Virus record (IMG/VR): IMGVR_UViG_3300044633_000288
Span: 1-23,061 of that record
Strand: one strand, 5' to 3'
DNA: 23,061 bases
Source: a virus
In this document: in pieces, positions 1-12,192 of the stretch
How the letters are laid out: each line of letters opens with the position of its first letter
How positions within the stretch are numbered: the first letter of the stretch is position 1
Notes under the pieces: model-generated
What the model saw: only the letters and a program-made list of their open reading frames with translations
Told to the model about the DNA's origin: nothing
Databases searched by the model: none
Translations under genes and position numbers: made by a program

Positions 1-1567
<1,567 letters not shown>

Positions 1568-1575
1568 GGATATAA

Positions 1576-2784
1576 ATGACAACGCAAATCACAGTTGATG
1601 GAATATTAATATATCCAGATTTAACACAGACCACCACAGCTCAAACAAGGGGTTATGGCGGATCTAGAGGTGCAACTGGTTATACTGGATCACTTGGTTA
1701 TACCGGATCTGTTGACGGCGCAGGTTCCATTGGCTACACGGGATCAATTGGGTATACTGGATCAATTGGATATACGGGTTCGGTAGGATACACCGGATCA
1801 GTAGGATACACTGGCTCAATTGGATATACAGGATCATTAGCTGGTTACGGCGGATCAATTGGATACACAGGTTCAGTGGGATATACCGGATCAATCGGAT
1901 ATACCGGATCAATTGGGTATACTGGTTCTATTGGTTATACTGGATCTCTTGTCGGTTATACAGGTTCTATTGGTTATACAGGTTCTATTGGATACACAGG
2001 TTCAGTGGGATATACCGGATCAATCGGATACACCGGATCAATTGGGTATACTGGATCTCTTGTCGGTTATACTGGATCTAGGGGTTATACTGGCTCAATC
2101 GGTTACGTTGGCTCTCTTGGCTATACTGGCTCAATCGGTTACACGGGTTCAATTGGTTATACTGGATCTCTTGTTGGTTATACTGGTTCAGTAGGATACA
2201 CTGGATCAGTAGGTGCGACCGGCCTAATTGGTTATACCGGTTCTCTTGTAGGTTATACCGGATCAATCGGTTATACTGGTTCTCTTGTTGGTTATACGGG
2301 TTCAGTTGGCTACACTGGATCGATTGGTTATACTGGCTCGGTAGGATACACTGGATCAATCGGATACACTGGATCGATTGGCTACACGGGATCATTAACT
2401 GGTTATACTGGTTCAGTAGGATACACGGGTTCCGTTGGCTATACGGGTTCAGTGGGTTACACTGGATCGATTGGTTACACAGGTTCTATCGGTTATACTG
2501 GTTCTCTTGTCGGTTATACAGGTTCAGTGGGATACACTGGTTCTATCGGTTACACAGGTTCTCTTGTTGGTTATACCGGTTCAGTTGGCTACACAGGTTC
2601 TATTGGATACACTGGTTCTCTTGTTGGTTATACTGGTTCAGTTGGCTACACTGGATCAGTAGGATATATTGGTTCAGTTGGCTATACTGGTTCGTTTGGT
2701 TACACGGGTTCTAGGGGTCCTACAGGCGCAGCTGGTCCTGATGCAATTGCGCCTCCACCTGATCCAGGTCCTAGCCCAGGATAA
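1576..2784 (+). CDS. Collagen-like repeat protein 2 (about 50 YTGS hexapeptides)
   Basis: This 402-residue protein has a short head (to about residue 26, containing a DLTQTT motif), a body built almost entirely of the hexapeptide G-Y-T-G-S-(I/V/L), and a proline-rich tail (GPTGAAGPDAIAPPPDPGPSPG, given as its last 22 residues in two parts: GPTGAAGPDA then IAPPPDPGPSPG). I count 51 exact YTGS units. The hexapeptide keeps the collagen rule of Gly at every third residue, but the body has essentially no proline. About every two to six units a seven-residue variant (SLVGYTG, SLTGYTG or SLAGYGG) adds one residue and shifts the Gly phase. A trimeric fibre or rod is likely, but whether it is a true collagen helix or another Gly-rich fold is open. 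An AAGGA ribosome site (1566-1570) precedes ATG 1576, nine bases after the previous stop. No enzymatic motif is visible. Confidence 0.75.
   Translation: MTTQITVDGILIYPDLTQTTTAQTRGYGGSRGATGYTGSLGYTGSVDGAGSIGYTGSIGYTGSIGYTGSVGYTGSVGYTGSIGYTGSLAGYGGSIGYTGSVGYTGSIGYTGSIGYTGSIGYTGSLVGYTGSIGYTGSIGYTGSVGYTGSIGYTGSIGYTGSLVGYTGSRGYTGSIGYVGSLGYTGSIGYTGSIGYTGSLVGYTGSVGYTGSVGATGLIGYTGSLVGYTGSIGYTGSLVGYTGSVGYTGSIGYTGSVGYTGSIGYTGSIGYTGSLTGYTGSVGYTGSVGYTGSVGYTGSIGYTGSIGYTGSLVGYTGSVGYTGSIGYTGSLVGYTGSVGYTGSIGYTGSLVGYTGSVGYTGSVGYIGSVGYTGSFGYTGSRGPTGAAGPDAIAPPPDPGPSPG
1678..2717 (+). repeat. 18-bp tandem repeat array encoding YTGS hexapeptides
   Basis: Degenerate tandem units of 18 bp (21 bp for the SLVG variant) run through almost the whole gene. 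Synonymous positions vary widely (for example TATACTGG, TACACAGG, TATACCGG), so the array is old overall. Some blocks are recent copies: 1861-1925 and 1990-2054 agree at 64 of 65 bases, 129 bp (43 codons) apart. The array offers many sites for in-frame expansion or contraction. Confidence 0.9.
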
Positions 2785-2798
2785 TGGAGATTAAATAA

Positions 2799-3968
2799 AT
2801 GACAACAACATTATCCAATACCGGCGTAACATTTAATGATGGCTCAGTACAAACATCTGCGAATCTAGTAACCGGCGCTGCTGGTGCTATTGGAGCAACA
2901 GGTACAAGAGGACCAACCGGGCCTGTAGGAAATACCGGCCCTGTTGGAGCTATCGGAGTAACCGGCGCGCGTGGACCAACCGGACCGATAGGAAATACCG
3001 GTTCTATCGGTTTAACCGGTCCTATCGGTACTACAGGTTTGCGTGGTACTACCGGACCGCAAGGGGCAACCGGAGCAAGAGGACCAACTGGAGCAACAGG
3101 AACTACAGGTTCAATCGGCCCAACCGGAGCAAGAGGACCAACTGGCGGTCGAGGTGATACTGGAGCGCAGGGGGCAACGGGCGCAATTGGACCAACCGGA
3201 GCGAGAGGGCCAACTGGCGGAATCGGTCCAACTGGAACTCGTGGAGCAACTGGCGGCCGTGGTGATACAGGACTTATTGGGCCAACTGGCGCAATTGGTC
3301 CAACCGGAGCAAGAGGAACTACAGGTTCTATCGGACCCACCGGTCCTATCGGAGCGACTGGTGGCCGCGGTGATACTGGTGACATAGGACCAACTGGACC
3401 TGTCGGACCAACTGGTGCGCGTGGACCAACTGGAGGCATCGGTCCAACAGGAACAAGAGGACCAACTGGTGGTCGTGGAGATACCGGTGACCTAGGACCA
3501 ACTGGATCTATCGGTCCAACTGGTGCTAGAGGAACTACTGGCCCTATTGGACCAACCGGTCCTATCGGCGCGACCGGCGGCCGTGGTGACACTGGAGCAA
3601 GAGGTCCTGTCGGAGCTATCGGTCCAACCGGAGCAAGAGGCCCTGACGGCCCAATCGGACCAACAGGAACACGTGGACCAACAGGTGGTATCGGTGATAC
3701 AGGTTCTATCGGACCAACCGGAGCAAGAGGCCCAACTGGCGGGATCGGTGCTACTGGGGCAATAGGTCCAGTTGGTGCACGAGGAACTACTGGCGGCCGA
3801 GGCGACACGGGATCAATAGGTCCATCTGGAGCAAGAGGACCGGCTGGGCCACAAGGTTCTGTTGGTGCACGAGGAACTACTGGACCAACTGGTGGCGGCG
3901 GTAATGAAGGTGCTGCAGGATATGTTGTACCAGCACCACCAGGTGTACCACCGGGCGGCGGAGAATAA
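2799..3968 (+). CDS. Collagen-like protein 3 (GPTGARG / GGRGDTG repeats)
   Basis: This 389-residue protein has a head with the motif FNDGSVQTS (about residues 11-20), an almost uninterrupted Gly-X-Y body from about residue 26 to 370, and a tail, [16 protein letters not shown]. Pro is mostly in the X position and Thr or Arg mostly in Y. Charged residues recur in modules such as [10 protein letters not shown] and GGRGDTG, the latter present six times, so this helix would be charged, unlike the YTGS protein upstream. Long regular Gly-X-Y supports a collagen-like trimeric rod on the virion (family knowledge plus inference). A GGAGA ribosome site (2786-2790) precedes ATG 2799. It is followed 25 bases later by the hydroxylase start, which makes it the nearest candidate substrate. 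A long antisense reading frame covers it, but that is a by-product of the repeats. Confidence 0.8.
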
Positions 3969-3983
3969 TTGAATTTTAATAAT

Positions 3984-3987
3984 GGAG
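3984..3987 (+). promoter_or_regulatory. Ribosome binding site that decides the hydroxylase start
   Basis: GGAG here is six bases from ATG 3994. The in-frame ATG at 3982 overlaps this site and has no ribosome site of its own, so 3994 is the preferred start. Confidence 0.7.
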
Positions 3988-3993
3988 TGTAAA

Positions 3994-4674
3994 ATGGAAA
4001 AAGTTAATAATGATGACACGTATACTACTTACAATATGGCGAATCAACAATGGCTACACTATGCCTCTTTTTACATCATGGATAAGTTTCTATCTGATCA
4101 AGAATTAGTGATCGTCAATGGTGCACTTTCACATTCTCATTCTGAGATGGTTAAAGGCTCTATCATCTCTAAAGAAAAAATGAATATGGATATTAGAAAC
4201 ACCGATATTCATTTCTTGAGAAAGCAAGGCGATGCGGCATCGGTGCACTATGATTTTTGGGATAATGAAGTACTTAAGAGAGTTGACGTCATTAACAAGA
4301 ACATTTTTGATTTTGAGTTAACAGGTTCAACAGCTCCACAGTATTCGATTTACAATCCTGATCAACATTATACATGGCATCCAGATGGTCCTATCGGAGT
4401 TATGGATGGTCGTGGCTTAAACTGCATTCCTAAAGCTTTATTGTGGCGTAAGCTTTCAGCAGTGATCATGTTGTCTGATCCGTCAGAGTACGAAGGCGGC
4501 GAGTTTCAAATCATGAATCCACATTCACCACCTGAAAGTGCACTTAACACATTGAAGCTAGATAAGGGATCAATTATCTTGTTTCCTTCCTTTATGTCTC
4601 ATAGAGTACTACCGGTTAAAAGCGGTCAGAGAAGAACTCTAGTTTATTGGTTTGTAGGCCCACGCTGGAAATAA
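3994..4674 (+). CDS. PKHD-type 2-oxoglutarate/Fe(II) hydroxylase (prolyl-4-hydroxylase-like)
   Basis: This 226-residue protein belongs to the 2OG-Fe(II) oxygenase superfamily, closest in motif to the PiuC/YbiX PKHD group. The iron ligands are visible: TWHPDGP gives His129 and Asp131, and SHRVLPVKSGQR gives distal His203 with the 2-oxoglutarate-binding Arg213 ten residues later. LSAVIMLSDPSEYEGGEF and GSIILFPSFMSH are the typical core strands. The expected reaction is hydroxylation of a substrate with 2-oxoglutarate and O2 giving succinate and CO2. The substrate is not shown by the sequence. Its position directly after three collagen-like genes suggests Pro, or another residue, in those fibres, but most Pro there are in X, not the Y position used by animal prolyl-4-hydroxylase. 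Related enzymes are known in other T4-like phages, also without an agreed substrate. Start 3994 is chosen over 3982 because of the GGAG site. Confidence 0.85.
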   Translation: MEKVNNDDTYTTYNMANQQWLHYASFYIMDKFLSDQELVIVNGALSHSHSEMVKGSIISKEKMNMDIRNTDIHFLRKQGDAASVHYDFWDNEVLKRVDVINKNIFDFELTGSTAPQYSIYNPDQHYTWHPDGPIGVMDGRGLNCIPKALLWRKLSAVIMLSDPSEYEGGEFQIMNPHSPPESALNTLKLDKGSIILFPSFMSHRVLPVKSGQRRTLVYWFVGPRWK

Positions 4675-4695: not shown

Positions 4696-5436
4696 ATGTC
4701 GACACCTACAACCAGAGAAGAATTTAAAAATTACTGCCTAAGAGCTTTGGGTAAGCCTGTAATTGAAATCAATGTCGACGAAGATCAGGTTGAAGATCGT
4801 GTTTCCGAGGCTTTGAAATACTACGCTGATTATCATTTCGACGGTACAGGCAAGCAGTATTATAAGCATTTAGTTACAGCAGAAGATAAGACTAACAAGT
4901 TTATCACACTTCCTGAAAATATTATTGGCGCAGTTAAGGTCTTCCCTATTGGAGGAATGTTAACCGCCAATAATATTTTCGATATTCGTTACCAGATTGC
5001 TCTAAATGATTTGTACACACTTACTTCTGTATCAATGGTTCCATATTATATGGCCATGTCGCATCTTCAGCTACTAGAGCAACTTCTTATTGGTCAGAAG
5101 CCAATCAGATACAACCGTCATACTAATAAGCTATATATCGATATGGACTGGGATCTTATTTCTATCGGTGAATATATTGTACTTGAAGCGTACGGTATTA
5201 TCGATCCAGAAGAATACGTAGATGTATGGTCAGACCGCTGGTTGGCCAGATACACTACTGCTCTAATCAAGCGTCAGTGGGGAAATAATATCAAGAAATT
5301 TGGTGAAATGAAGTTGCCAGGTGGATTGACATTTAATGGCCAGAAAATTTACGACGAAGCAGTAGAAGAAATTGAAAGGTTAGAGCATGAAATGATTGTT
5401 AACTTCTCATTGCCCGTTGCGGATTTTATAGGATAG
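4696..5436 (+). CDS. 13: Neck protein gp13 (head completion)
   Basis: This 246-residue protein resembles T4-like neck protein gp13, which with gp14 forms the collar below the portal and closes the filled head so the tail can attach. The N-terminal segment TREEFKNYCLRALGKPVIEI followed by NVDEDQVEDRVSEALKYYADYHFDG is the recognisable conserved part; the protein is mostly helical and has no enzymatic motif. It is shorter than T4 gp13 (309 residues), as in exotic T4-like phages. An AAAGGA ribosome site lies eight bases before the ATG, and a late-type box lies further upstream. gp14 would normally follow directly; here a homing endonuclease gene separates them. Confidence 0.85.
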   Translation: MSTPTTREEFKNYCLRALGKPVIEINVDEDQVEDRVSEALKYYADYHFDGTGKQYYKHLVTAEDKTNKFITLPENIIGAVKVFPIGGMLTANNIFDIRYQIALNDLYTLTSVSMVPYYMAMSHLQLLEQLLIGQKPIRYNRHTNKLYIDMDWDLISIGEYIVLEAYGIIDPEEYVDVWSDRWLARYTTALIKRQWGNNIKKFGEMKLPGGLTFNGQKIYDEAVEEIERLEHEMIVNFSLPVADFIG

Positions 5437-5484: not shown

Positions 5485-6150
5485 ATGGAAAAATATGGAT
5501 TCATTTATATTTGGTTTGACCGTAAACATAAGCGTTATTATATCGGTTCCCATTGGGGAACAGAAACAGATAGATATGTTTGTTCTTCAAAATGGATGAA
5601 CAAAGCATATGCAAGAAGAACTAATGACTTCAAGCGACGTATTTTAAAACGAGTATATTCGTCTAGAAAAGATATGCTAGAAGAAGAGACTCGCTGGCTT
5701 CAGATGATTAAACCAGAAGAAATAAAGATTAGATATTATAATTTAAAAAGAAGTGGCAATCATTGGTCTGCTTCTGAATATGATCGTCTAAGGATAAACC
5801 AAAAAATAGCTATCAAAACAAAAGAAGCTATGTCTCGGCCGGATGTTAGAAAAAACTACGAAAACGGACTTAAAGAAAGAGACACCAGTTGGACACAGGA
5901 TCCAAAGGTCCTAGCCCAGAAATCCAGATCTATGATGGGTAAGAATAAAAGGCCTGGAAATTGGAAGGCAGCAATCGAAAAGAACAGAGGTCGGCCATTA
6001 ACCGAAGAACACAAAGCCAAGATAACCAATGCCGGTGTTTTTGCTTCAATAAATAAGAAGAAAATACAATGCATGCATTGTGAATTTACGGGAAACGCAG
6101 GTAATATTGGTAGATATCACAATGACAAATGTAAGAAGAAAATAGTATAA
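5485..6150 (+). CDS. GIY-YIG homing endonuclease (free-standing)
   Basis: This 221-residue protein starts with FIYIWFDRKHKRYYIGSHWG, a GIY-YIG variant (FIY at 6-8, YIG at 19-21), followed by basic residues around 40-56 and a candidate catalytic Glu near 67 (LEEETRWL). The middle is a linker rich in Lys and Arg; a NUMOD3-like DNA-binding motif (GRPLTEEHKAKI, about 169-180) follows, and the C-terminus has a C2HC zinc-binding pattern (Cys196, Cys199, His212, Cys216). Such enzymes cut an allele lacking the gene and spread by repair. It sits exactly between 13 and 14, with its stop overlapping the gp14 ATG, the usual location for a seg/mob-like mobile gene. It uses more AAA and AGA codons than its neighbours, consistent with transfer. 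AAAGGAGA and a perfect late box precede it. All core motifs are present, so activity is plausible. Confidence 0.85.
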   Translation: MEKYGFIYIWFDRKHKRYYIGSHWGTETDRYVCSSKWMNKAYARRTNDFKRRILKRVYSSRKDMLEEETRWLQMIKPEEIKIRYYNLKRSGNHWSASEYDRLRINQKIAIKTKEAMSRPDVRKNYENGLKERDTSWTQDPKVLAQKSRSMMGKNKRPGNWKAAIEKNRGRPLTEEHKAKITNAGVFASINKKKIQCMHCEFTGNAGNIGRYHNDKCKKKIV

Positions 6151-9876: not shown

Positions 9877-12192
9877 ATGCCATTTCAGTTAAGTGCCGGT
9901 GTTAATATCACTGAAATCGATCTAACAACAATCGTTCCTGCAGTTTCTACTGCGGTTGGAGCGATTGCTGGTATCTTCCGCTGGGGTCCTGTCGGGCAGA
10001 GATTGCTTGTTGACAGAGAAACTATCCTAGCAGCAAGATTCGGTACCCCATCAAACCTAAATGCAGAAACATGGTTTACTGCTGCTAACTTCCTAGGTTA
10101 TGCCAACCAGCTAATGGTAGTTCGTGCTGCTAACACGACCGGAGCAACTCCTTCAGCCGACTTTAATGCCCTAGGAGCCAACTCAACCGTTTCAAACAAC
10201 ATCTTCACAATCACATCTGGTAATACAGCTGAGCTGGCAACCGGAATGTACATCACACAGTCAAGTAACTCAACGATCATCGGTTCTGGTAACAACCTGT
10301 CAGTGACTGTGATTAACTCAACAGCTATCTCATTGAGTGGTAATACCAACTCAAACGGAACTGTTACGATGTATTTCGGTAGAGCACAGACAGCTTACTC
10401 AGCTGTAGCTCTAGCTAACAACGGTTTCGTTGCTAACTTGGTTAACCAGATCGTAAAGAATGAAGAAGAGTATACAACTAAGGACGGAACTTTTGACACG
10501 GACGTAATGTACGTAGCTAAGTTCCCAGGTAGCATGGGTAATTCTCTTCGGGTTGCAGTGTGTGATACAGCCAATGCATATCAGTCAAACGTAAATCTTT
10601 TGGCTAATGCAACATGGTCTGGTTCTGCCTTTGCGATCACTGTTGGTTCAAACACAGGAACGATCTCAGTTTCTAACGGCTCAGCTACGAACACCAGCGG
10701 TAATACGTACGCCGGAACGCTTGCAGCTAACTTGGTTGCTGGTGACTTGATTTCAGTTGGTAACTCGCAGATTGGAACTCAGTACCTAAAGGTAACTGAA
10801 ATTGGTGCTGCGGTATCTAACGCAACAGTGACAACTCTAACCTTGTCATTCGAAGATCCATACCGTCTATCAACTGATTATTCATCTAACACAATCGCAA
10901 GACATTGGGAATTCTTCAATGTTGTTGATACTGCTCCAGGTCAGTCTCAGTATGTCCAGGACTACGGTAACACAGCAGCTAATGATGAACTTCATGTAGT
11001 TGTGGTTGATGAAAACGGTGACTTCTCTAGCGCACCGGGAACAATCCTAGAAGTGTACAAGAACCTTTCTCGTGCTACTAACGCCAAGGGCGCTGATAAT
11101 ACAGACAATTATTACAAGAATGTACTAAACGATAAGTCTCAGTACATCTATTGGGCAAATGATCGTTCGAACGCTGCGTCTGCAAATGCCCAGACAGTTG
11201 CATCTTCAACCAACTATGCTCCTCTATCAGTTAACTTCACACTAGGTGCAGATGGTTCATCTGAATCCGATGCAACTCTAGCTGTTGTTGCGGCTGCATA
11301 TGACAAGTTCATCAACTCTGAAGATGTTGACATCTCGATCGTTATGCAGGGTAAGCCACTAGGTGGTTCAACCAGCTTTGGCGGTCAGACCGTAACTGGT
11401 TACCTACTTGGTAATTACATCATCGATAACATCGTAACAATCAGAAAAGATTGCGTCGCTGTTATCTCACCGGAAAAGAGCACTGTTGTTAACAACATCG
11501 GTAACGAAGCACTATCTCTGGTTAATTGGAGAAACGTTCTTCATGATTCTTCATATGCTATTATGGATAGTGGTTACAAGTATCAGTACGACCGCTACAA
11601 CGACATGTACCGTTGGATCCCTCTAAATGGTGACATTGCTGGTCTTTGCGCAAGAACTGATCAGACCAATGACGCATGGTGGTCACCAGCCGGATTTAAC
11701 CGTGGACAGATCAAGAACTTGGTTCGTCTAGCGTTTAATCCAGGTAAGGCAGAGCGTGATACGCTTTACAAGAATGGTATCAACCCAGTAGTAACGTTCT
11801 CAGGTCAGGGCACAGTTTTATACGGTGATAAGACTATCCAGTCTAAGCCAAGTGCATTCGATCGTATCAACGTACGTCGTCTGTTCATCGTCCTAGAAAA
11901 GGCAATCGCTGTTTCTTCTAAGTTCCAGCTATTCGAGTTCAACGATGAATTCACAAGACGCCAGTTTGTAAACATTGTTACTCCATATCTTCGTGAAGTA
12001 CAGGGTCGTCGTGGTATCACAGCGTTCAAGGTGGTATGTGATGAATCTAACAACACCGCTCAGGTGGTTGACTCTAACGAGTTTGTTGGTGACATCTACA
12101 TCAAGCCAGCCCGTTCAATCAACTTCATTCAGTTGAACTTCGTTGCAGTACCATCTGGTGTTCAGTTCTCTGAAATTGTCGGAAACTTCTAA
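9877..12192 (+). CDS. 18: Contractile tail sheath protein gp18
   Basis: This 771-residue protein has the T4-like sheath N-terminus (GVNITEIDLTTIVPAVSTAV, then GIFRWGPVGQRLLVD) and the conserved C-terminal domain (RDTLYKNGINPVVTFSGQGT, FDRINVRRLFIVLEKAI and a final VPSGVQFSEIVGNF). Sheath subunits stack around the tube and contract to drive it through the host envelope; the two terminal regions form the inner conserved core. It is longer than T4 gp18 (659). The extra length lies mainly in two Asn/Ser/Thr/Gly-rich, beta-like stretches at about residues 92-170 and 237-330, probably outward-facing domains. An AAGGAGA ribosome site precedes ATG 9877. A hairpin five bases after the stop separates it from gp19. 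Confidence 0.94.
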   Translation: MPFQLSAGVNITEIDLTTIVPAVSTAVGAIAGIFRWGPVGQRLLVDRETILAARFGTPSNLNAETWFTAANFLGYANQLMVVRAANTTGATPSADFNALGANSTVSNNIFTITSGNTAELATGMYITQSSNSTIIGSGNNLSVTVINSTAISLSGNTNSNGTVTMYFGRAQTAYSAVALANNGFVANLVNQIVKNEEEYTTKDGTFDTDVMYVAKFPGSMGNSLRVAVCDTANAYQSNVNLLANATWSGSAFAITVGSNTGTISVSNGSATNTSGNTYAGTLAANLVAGDLISVGNSQIGTQYLKVTEIGAAVSNATVTTLTLSFEDPYRLSTDYSSNTIARHWEFFNVVDTAPGQSQYVQDYGNTAANDELHVVVVDENGDFSSAPGTILEVYKNLSRATNAKGADNTDNYYKNVLNDKSQYIYWANDRSNAASANAQTVASSTNYAPLSVNFTLGADGSSESDATLAVVAAAYDKFINSEDVDISIVMQGKPLGGSTSFGGQTVTGYLLGNYIIDNIVTIRKDCVAVISPEKSTVVNNIGNEALSLVNWRNVLHDSSYAIMDSGYKYQYDRYNDMYRWIPLNGDIAGLCARTDQTNDAWWSPAGFNRGQIKNLVRLAFNPGKAERDTLYKNGINPVVTFSGQGTVLYGDKTIQSKPSAFDRINVRRLFIVLEKAIAVSSKFQLFEFNDEFTRRQFVNIVTPYLREVQGRRGITAFKVVCDESNNTAQVVDSNEFVGDIYIKPARSINFIQLNFVAVPSGVQFSEIVGNF

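Follow-up and report, generated by a model that had tools for sequence, protein, structure and literature searches.

A nearly proline-free, collagen-like GYTGS repeat in a predicted viral fibre protein

Proline is commonly seen as a prerequisite of the collagen helix. In the cuticle collagen of Riftia, an animal protein, glycosylated Thr replaces hydroxyproline as the helix stabiliser. Collagen-like fibres of phages have been demonstrated to be trimeric triple helices, and EPclA, from the side tail fibres of E. coli O157:H7 prophages, is one for which the trimeric triple helix was demonstrated (PMC3368898). Scl2 and similar bacterial collagens form a stable triple helix without hydroxyproline, with charged or polar residues at the X and Y positions of the Gly-X-Y triplets (PMC8968730, PMC7824840). 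In C. difficile, the gene directly upstream of bclA3 encodes SgtA, which attaches GlcNAc to Thr residues in the collagen repeat and can use Ser as well (PMC7157674).

Here we describe an ORF (hereafter ORF Y) dominated by the pentapeptide GYTGS, in a 23,061-nucleotide fragment of an uncultured T4-like myovirus known from a virus record; the whole stretch analysed is called the window. The features around and within ORF Y are as follows.

3..497, + strand, C-terminal part of a tail fibre with an S74 intramolecular chaperone
497..1567, + strand, C1, collagen-like and Pro-containing; five YTGS units share its Gly-X-Y register
1576..2784, + strand, ORF Y, proline-poor collagen-like protein of 402 aa (ORF translation, Pfam)
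1576..1650, + strand, N-terminal 25 aa of ORF Y, MTTQITVDGILIYPDLTQTTTAQTR, a putative attachment segment resembling the N-termini of C1 and C3 (translations)
1651..2736, + strand, repeat rod of ORF Y, residues 26-387, with 51 GYTGS and variant hexads and 11 one-residue register breaks
2737..2781, + strand, C-terminal tail of ORF Y, PDAIAPPPDPGPSPG (translation, Pfam)
2799..3968, + strand, C3, collagen-like and Pro-containing (GPT and GGRGDT types)
3982..4674, + strand, 2OG-Fe(II) oxygenase (PF13640)
4696..5436, + strand, gp13-like neck protein (PHROG head-tail adaptor)

C1, Y and C3 are thus three tandem collagen-like ORFs with similar short N-termini, and they lie to the left of gp13 together with the S74-chaperone tail fibre and the 2OG-Fe(II) oxygenase. 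To the right of ORF Y, the genes keep the T4 order, from the gp13-like gene through gp14, gp15, terminase and tail sheath to the major head protein, whose counterparts in Stenotrophomonas phage DLP_6, Methylophilales phage Melnitz and Sinorhizobium phiM12-type phages share 64-70% identity with it. In T4, the whisker gene wac is located immediately upstream of gene 13. The region upstream of gp13 is variable among 75 gp13 relatives, five of which have a collagen-like ORF within 5 kb. Since ORF Y lies among fibre and neck genes, upstream of gp13 as wac does in T4, and collagen-like ORFs occur near gp13 in relatives, a neck or side fibre is a plausible identity for its product. The sequence-only reading of this DNA had named capsid attachment as one possible source of stability, which gains no support from neighbours that are tail-fibre and neck genes.

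C1 has 356 aa in the window and 392 aa in other contigs of the same virus (L143:4685-5863), and this 108-bp repeat-length difference is either a real polymorphism or an assembly collapse. At 758-927, its collagen tract is also interrupted four times by a different kind of break, GPANATTG, with a Gly spacing of 7. A GIY-YIG homing-endonuclease-like ORF (5485-6150) is located between gp13 and gp14, and a similar ORF adjoins gp13 in several relatives (a cluster of 15). The tail sheath protein (9877-12192) seems to carry large insertions, since its 771 aa match the PHROG sheath profile of 496 positions over the whole length.

The GYTGS unit occurs exactly 51 times in ORF Y, in agreement with the earlier estimate of about 51 copies; the first unit begins at 1678 and the last finishes at 2712. 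The sixth residue had been given as Ile, Val or Leu, which describes all units except two with Arg and one with Phe. Gly at every third residue throughout, also claimed earlier, has to be corrected: neighbouring Gly residues are 3 positions apart in 103 cases and 4 apart in 12, and 11 of these 12 fall within the rod as one-residue breaks. The breaks read SVDG, SLAG, SLVG and SLTG, mostly in the form GSL(V/A/T)G, and successive ones are separated by 7, 6, 6, 6, 4, 2, 6, 6, 3 and 3 hexads. Since this spacing fits tandem periods of 57, 111 and 336 bp in the DNA, segmental duplication may explain it; alternatively, it may have a structural reason. Pro accounts for 9 of the 402 residues (2%), nearly all outside the rod, and charged residues for another 9, which bears out the view that any triple helix formed by this Gly-X-Y protein would need a stabiliser other than proline. 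Triplets containing Pro make up 2% in ORF Y, 30% in C1 and 35% in C3. With 88% of its triplets being GYT or GS(I/V/L), ORF Y is the purest member found of the repeat type described below.

The 51 GYTGS units comprise 37 distinct 15-mers. Pairs of units differ by a mean of 3.03 at the third codon position and by 0 at the first and the second; because the units were chosen by peptide, positions 1 and 2 are partly fixed by that choice, and the near-saturated position 3 is the informative part. Since variation among the units is confined to third codon positions, the GYTGS peptide is under strong purifying selection. The DNA of ORF Y is identical in five other metagenomic contigs, and ORF Y is therefore not an assembly artefact. 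It is a real, conserved ORF for a predicted collagen-like viral fibre, and the purest example found of a proline-poor dialect.

The search for other YTGS-rich proteins, suggested together with the original observation, proved productive. Relatives of ORF Y amounted to 419 stretches in a scan of viral contigs and to 73 by a strict DNA pattern. With the window's own virus left out, the viral loci analysed yielded another 144 non-redundant proteins, each containing five or more G(Y/F)TGS units. One relative has 166 GYTGS units and an unbroken run of 234 triplets. Pro is present in fewer than 5% of the triplets in 107 of the 144 relatives, and charges in fewer than 5% in 26. Thr follows Tyr/Phe in 66% of the units of YTGS proteins and Ser follows G(Y/F)TG in 99%, figures that are partly a selection effect, as the proteins were chosen by this motif. 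From these sequences, the dialect is read as G-(Y/F)-T-G-S-x, with Tyr/Phe and Ser at the X position and Thr and a variable residue at Y. A recurrent interruption in relatives, GSASTVIGYTGS (L086:5845-10146), is a second regular register break besides GSLVG.

YTGS loci were found in only 5 cases among 84,980 prokaryote species genomes, all of them on MAG contigs, and we therefore rejected cellular genomes as the source of these genes. GYTGS was absent from the phage-collection proteins examined, a sample of that collection. The cyanophages S-CAM7 and S-CBWM1 and Roseobacter phage CRP-114, which tblastn had brought up as relatives, were dropped as they have no GYTGS. Literature containing the string GYTGS included nothing on this repeat, judged by title and abstract, and no description of the proline-poor dialect was found in the literature searched. 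The repeat is apparently widespread in viruses and undescribed in that literature, and ORF Y is by its sequence one member of a large viral family, a variant of the phage collagen-like fibres.

The relatives provide the evidence on the fold. In the 144 proteins, Lys is located 997 times at Y and 11 times at X, Arg 1051 times at Y and 35 times at X, and Asp 1348 times at X and 501 times at Y. Lys-Gly-Asp was observed 640 times (58 expected). As the repeats are related and hence not independent, counting by protein is safer: Lys-Gly-Asp/Glu occurs in 80 proteins and 50 contexts, and the reverse order in one protein. Lys-Gly-Glu/Asp pairs are strong stabilisers of the triple helix (PMC7824840). 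The X/Y preferences of the relatives correlate with those of collagen I fragments (rho 0.64, p 0.014). Host-guest helix propensities gave the expected direction at a non-significant level (p 0.066), and the placement of Leu was opposite. Moreover, of 7563 gaps between successive units, 2108 (28%) span an odd number of triplets, and in 64 of 153 proteins YTGS units and Pro triplets share one unbroken Gly-X-Y run, as they do in the neighbouring C1. At L200, the region upstream of gp13 encodes a YTGS relative whose C-terminus is an S74 chaperone, a domain of trimeric fibres.

These data bear on a single-chain hexapeptide β-solenoid resembling a left-handed β-helix, in which the Ile, Val or Leu of (I/V/L)-G-Y-T-G-S would point inward and the GSLVG breaks would be located at the corners. 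ORF Y itself suits such a fold: its hexads are almost perfect, with an aliphatic residue in sixth place, and its breaks come close to multiples of three hexads, or 18 residues, which is the length of one coil in a left-handed β-helix. A strict six-residue phase with an inward aliphatic residue is, however, largely kept in the window's rod only; across the relatives the phase is lost in the 28% of gaps noted above, and the sixth residue is Ile, Val or Leu in about a third of the units and otherwise Gln, Lys, Ala, Arg and others. No hexapeptide-repeat family in Pfam matched ORF Y at E up to 1, and Collagen was the only match. The AlphaFold2 single-chain model of ORF Y shows weak four-residue β strands (an EEEE-- pattern) that would agree with a solenoid, but its pLDDT is only 42, and a preference of AlphaFold2 for solenoids in repeat sequences is documented (PMC11795689). 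The Pro-containing control C3 gave a pLDDT of 32, and we regard the single-chain models as uninformative for both the rod and the control. Since charge placement, the correlation with collagen I, and the odd-triplet gaps and mixed Pro runs all favour a collagen-type rod, we consider the solenoid unlikely.

The Pfam match of ORF Y to Collagen (PF01391) reaches 133.9 bits against a cut-off of 27.2, which is weak evidence since in the PDB alignments the matched positions are mostly Gly alone, reflecting composition bias. Two features of that family can be compared directly: ORF Y has 117 Gly-X-Y triplets in runs, with its 11 one-residue breaks, and it lacks the Pro/hydroxyproline-rich X and Y positions. 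PDB matches to human collagens and to the 8zxl/9ius chain were dominated by Gly and composition-biased, and were discarded as evidence on the fold.

The window's rod is almost uncharged and lacks Lys-Gly-Asp/Glu pairs, so that the placement rules are seen in its relatives only. Proline and charge pairs are the best-known stabilisers of the triple helix, and in a rod lacking both, a bare helix may not be stable. The rod might then be an intrinsically flexible or polyglycine-II-like Gly-rich spacer, not wound into a triple helix at ambient temperature and serving as a tether or hydrated brush; the many one-residue breaks and the low AlphaFold2 confidence agree with this. Such a spacer leaves the collagen-type X/Y placement and the Lys-Gly-Asp/Glu pairing of the relatives unexplained, and we hold it to be improbable, if slightly less so than the solenoid. 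The earlier suggestion of a different Gly-rich fold is therefore weakened by the family data and keeps some room for the exact protein of the window.

Proline could also be supplied by partner chains, if C1, Y and C3 formed a heterotrimer in which the Pro-containing chains stabilise the Pro-free one. The three ORFs are adjacent, similar in length and similar at their N-termini, and Y and C3 both have 117 triplets. The 11 register breaks of Y and the essentially unbroken C3 would, however, make the chains drift out of register, and most YTGS genes elsewhere are single ORFs, much longer than ORF Y. A heterotrimer is thus very improbable.

We consider the most probable reading, at about 0.6, to be that ORF Y encodes a homotrimeric virion fibre anchored at its N-termini, with a Gly-X-Y triple helix of about 100 nm that is kinked at the breaks. 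Three identical chains would be attached through their short N-termini and would wind into a collagen-type rod, which would bend at each one-residue break. At the collagen rise of 0.286 nm per residue, the rod would measure about 104 nm. We infer the trimer, the triple helix and the virion location from the family evidence and the gene neighbourhood. In the tail PDAIAPPPDPGPSPG, no trimerisation or receptor domain was recognised from the translation and Pfam.

How a proline-free helix of this kind might be held together is suggested by the neighbours of YTGS genes. When neighbours were clustered for 149 YTGS and 72 control T4-like loci, a single linked cluster dominated, occurring at 45 YTGS loci and three control loci; one control member, when inspected, was methyltransferase-like and probably joined through fusion proteins. 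The representative of the cluster is a GT4-GT2 fusion (Glycos_transf_1 plus Glycos_transf_2), and its gene lies within 300 bp of a YTGS ORF in 34 loci (some redundant), mostly at 20-110 bp and nearly always divergently oriented. Among the immediate neighbours of 100 non-redundant proteins, the fusion accounts for 15, in addition to one GT60-type and one GT25-type enzyme. In the reverse search from the enzyme, a YTGS-like ORF lay within 5 kb in 44 of 80 loci versus 3 of 75 gp13 controls (Fisher p 5e-13), a result only partly independent because the enzyme alignment (A1) was built from YTGS loci, and with a control that represents a different genomic region and possibly a different set of viruses. 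Non-redundant loci under another distance rule gave 29/58 versus 0/43, and the YTGS ORF was the direct divergent neighbour in 14 of 54 enzyme loci. Collagen-like ORFs, most of them Pro-containing rather than YTGS, flank the GT60-type enzyme (Pfam GlcNAc; L261-L273, L200:4112-5131) in 11 of 13 loci. In eukaryotes, GT60 is associated with glycosylation of Skp1 on Thr. Glycosyltransferase genes flank the collagen-like genes of cyanophages S-CAM7 and S-CBWM1 too. A sulfotransferase-family ORF (PF03567; L191:1264-1956) occurs in the same neighbourhood as the GT60-type enzyme and a YTGS-S74 fibre, and in S-CAM7 an adenylylsulfate kinase is likewise encoded close to the collagen-like tail fibre.

Since YTGS genes often adjoin genes for sugar-transferring enzymes, sugars are suggested to take the place of proline in holding the YTGS fibre together. 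The neighbouring enzymes would add O-glycans to Thr or Ser (or Tyr) of G-Y-T-G-S, as SgtA does on the BclA3 collagen repeat, and the glycans, together with stacked Tyr, would stabilise the helix or coat the fibre; we put this forward tentatively, as a doubtful reading of the gene pairing. A stronger candidate, with a chance a little short of even, is that the glycosyltransferases modify the host surface (LPS) and adjoin fibre genes only through a shared, variable host-recognition region. It competes with the glycosylation and not with the collagen fold. Glycosyltransferases that pelagimyophages encode in their tail-fibre region have been explained in this way (PMC7029224), and at some GT4-GT2 loci the upstream neighbour is a non-collagen fibre-like ORF; the repeated divergent pairing directly with YTGS ORFs, and the occurrence of a second, GT60-like enzyme type near collagen-like ORFs, are less easily accommodated.

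At the window's own locus, no glycosyltransferase was found in the 23 kb or in the 4.7 kb upstream on a sister contig, so that the adjoining of a glycosyltransferase gene and a collagen-like gene, the BclA-type feature, is seen in many relatives and not here. Glycan stabilisation of this rod would thus be an extrapolation from the relatives, and the Thr modification proposed from the sequence has circumstantial backing in the relatives' neighbours and none from an enzyme gene at this locus. The window's 2OG-Fe(II) oxygenase could hydroxylate the Pro-containing C1 and C3. It was rejected as a feature of the family, as a motif scan found such enzymes at 2 of 141 YTGS loci and 3 of 75 controls; in viral contigs, the window's oxygenase has only remote relatives besides copies from the window's virus.

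Many environmental viruses seem to make long Gly-X-Y rods nearly without proline, and some of these also without charge pairs. The pairing of YTGS and glycosyltransferase genes makes the cohesion of the rod testable at the bench, with an enzyme class that can be named and a short peptide as substrate. If the fibres do carry glycans, collagen materials that are glycosylated and free of proline could be made by a compact genetic route, and some fibre-region glycosyltransferases of environmental phages, now usually read as modifiers of host LPS, would be accounted for.

Among the known systems, the Riftia cuticle collagen has a demonstrated glycan, whereas that of the YTGS fibre is a proposal. 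Scl2 depends on proline and charge; the window's rod is without both, and many YTGS relatives have charge pairs. BclA3 and SgtA resemble the YTGS relatives in the Thr at Y and in the directly adjoining glycosyltransferase gene; they differ in their GPT repeats with proline, in the bacterial spore origin and in the demonstrated glycosylation (PMC7157674), and ORF Y, unlike bclA3, has no glycosyltransferase gene alongside. In the cultured Methylophilaceae phage P19250A, the ORF at 21390-24995 (KX815270.1, L350:3530-7135) contains a Pro-free tract of 275 Gly-X-Y triplets of the form Gly-(Y/F/I/W)-Ser, with Tyr, Phe or Ile at X and Pro in 2 of the 275; its annotation as a tape-measure protein is, from this sequence, probably wrong. 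That tract differs from YTGS in having Ser rather than Thr at Y, a period of 3 rather than 6 and no GYTGS. EPclA and EPclB, in contrast to ORF Y, contain Pro, coiled-coil regions and C-terminal trimerisation domains, are unglycosylated and lack the YTGS repeat, but they are likewise phage Gly-X-Y fibre rods (PMC3368898).
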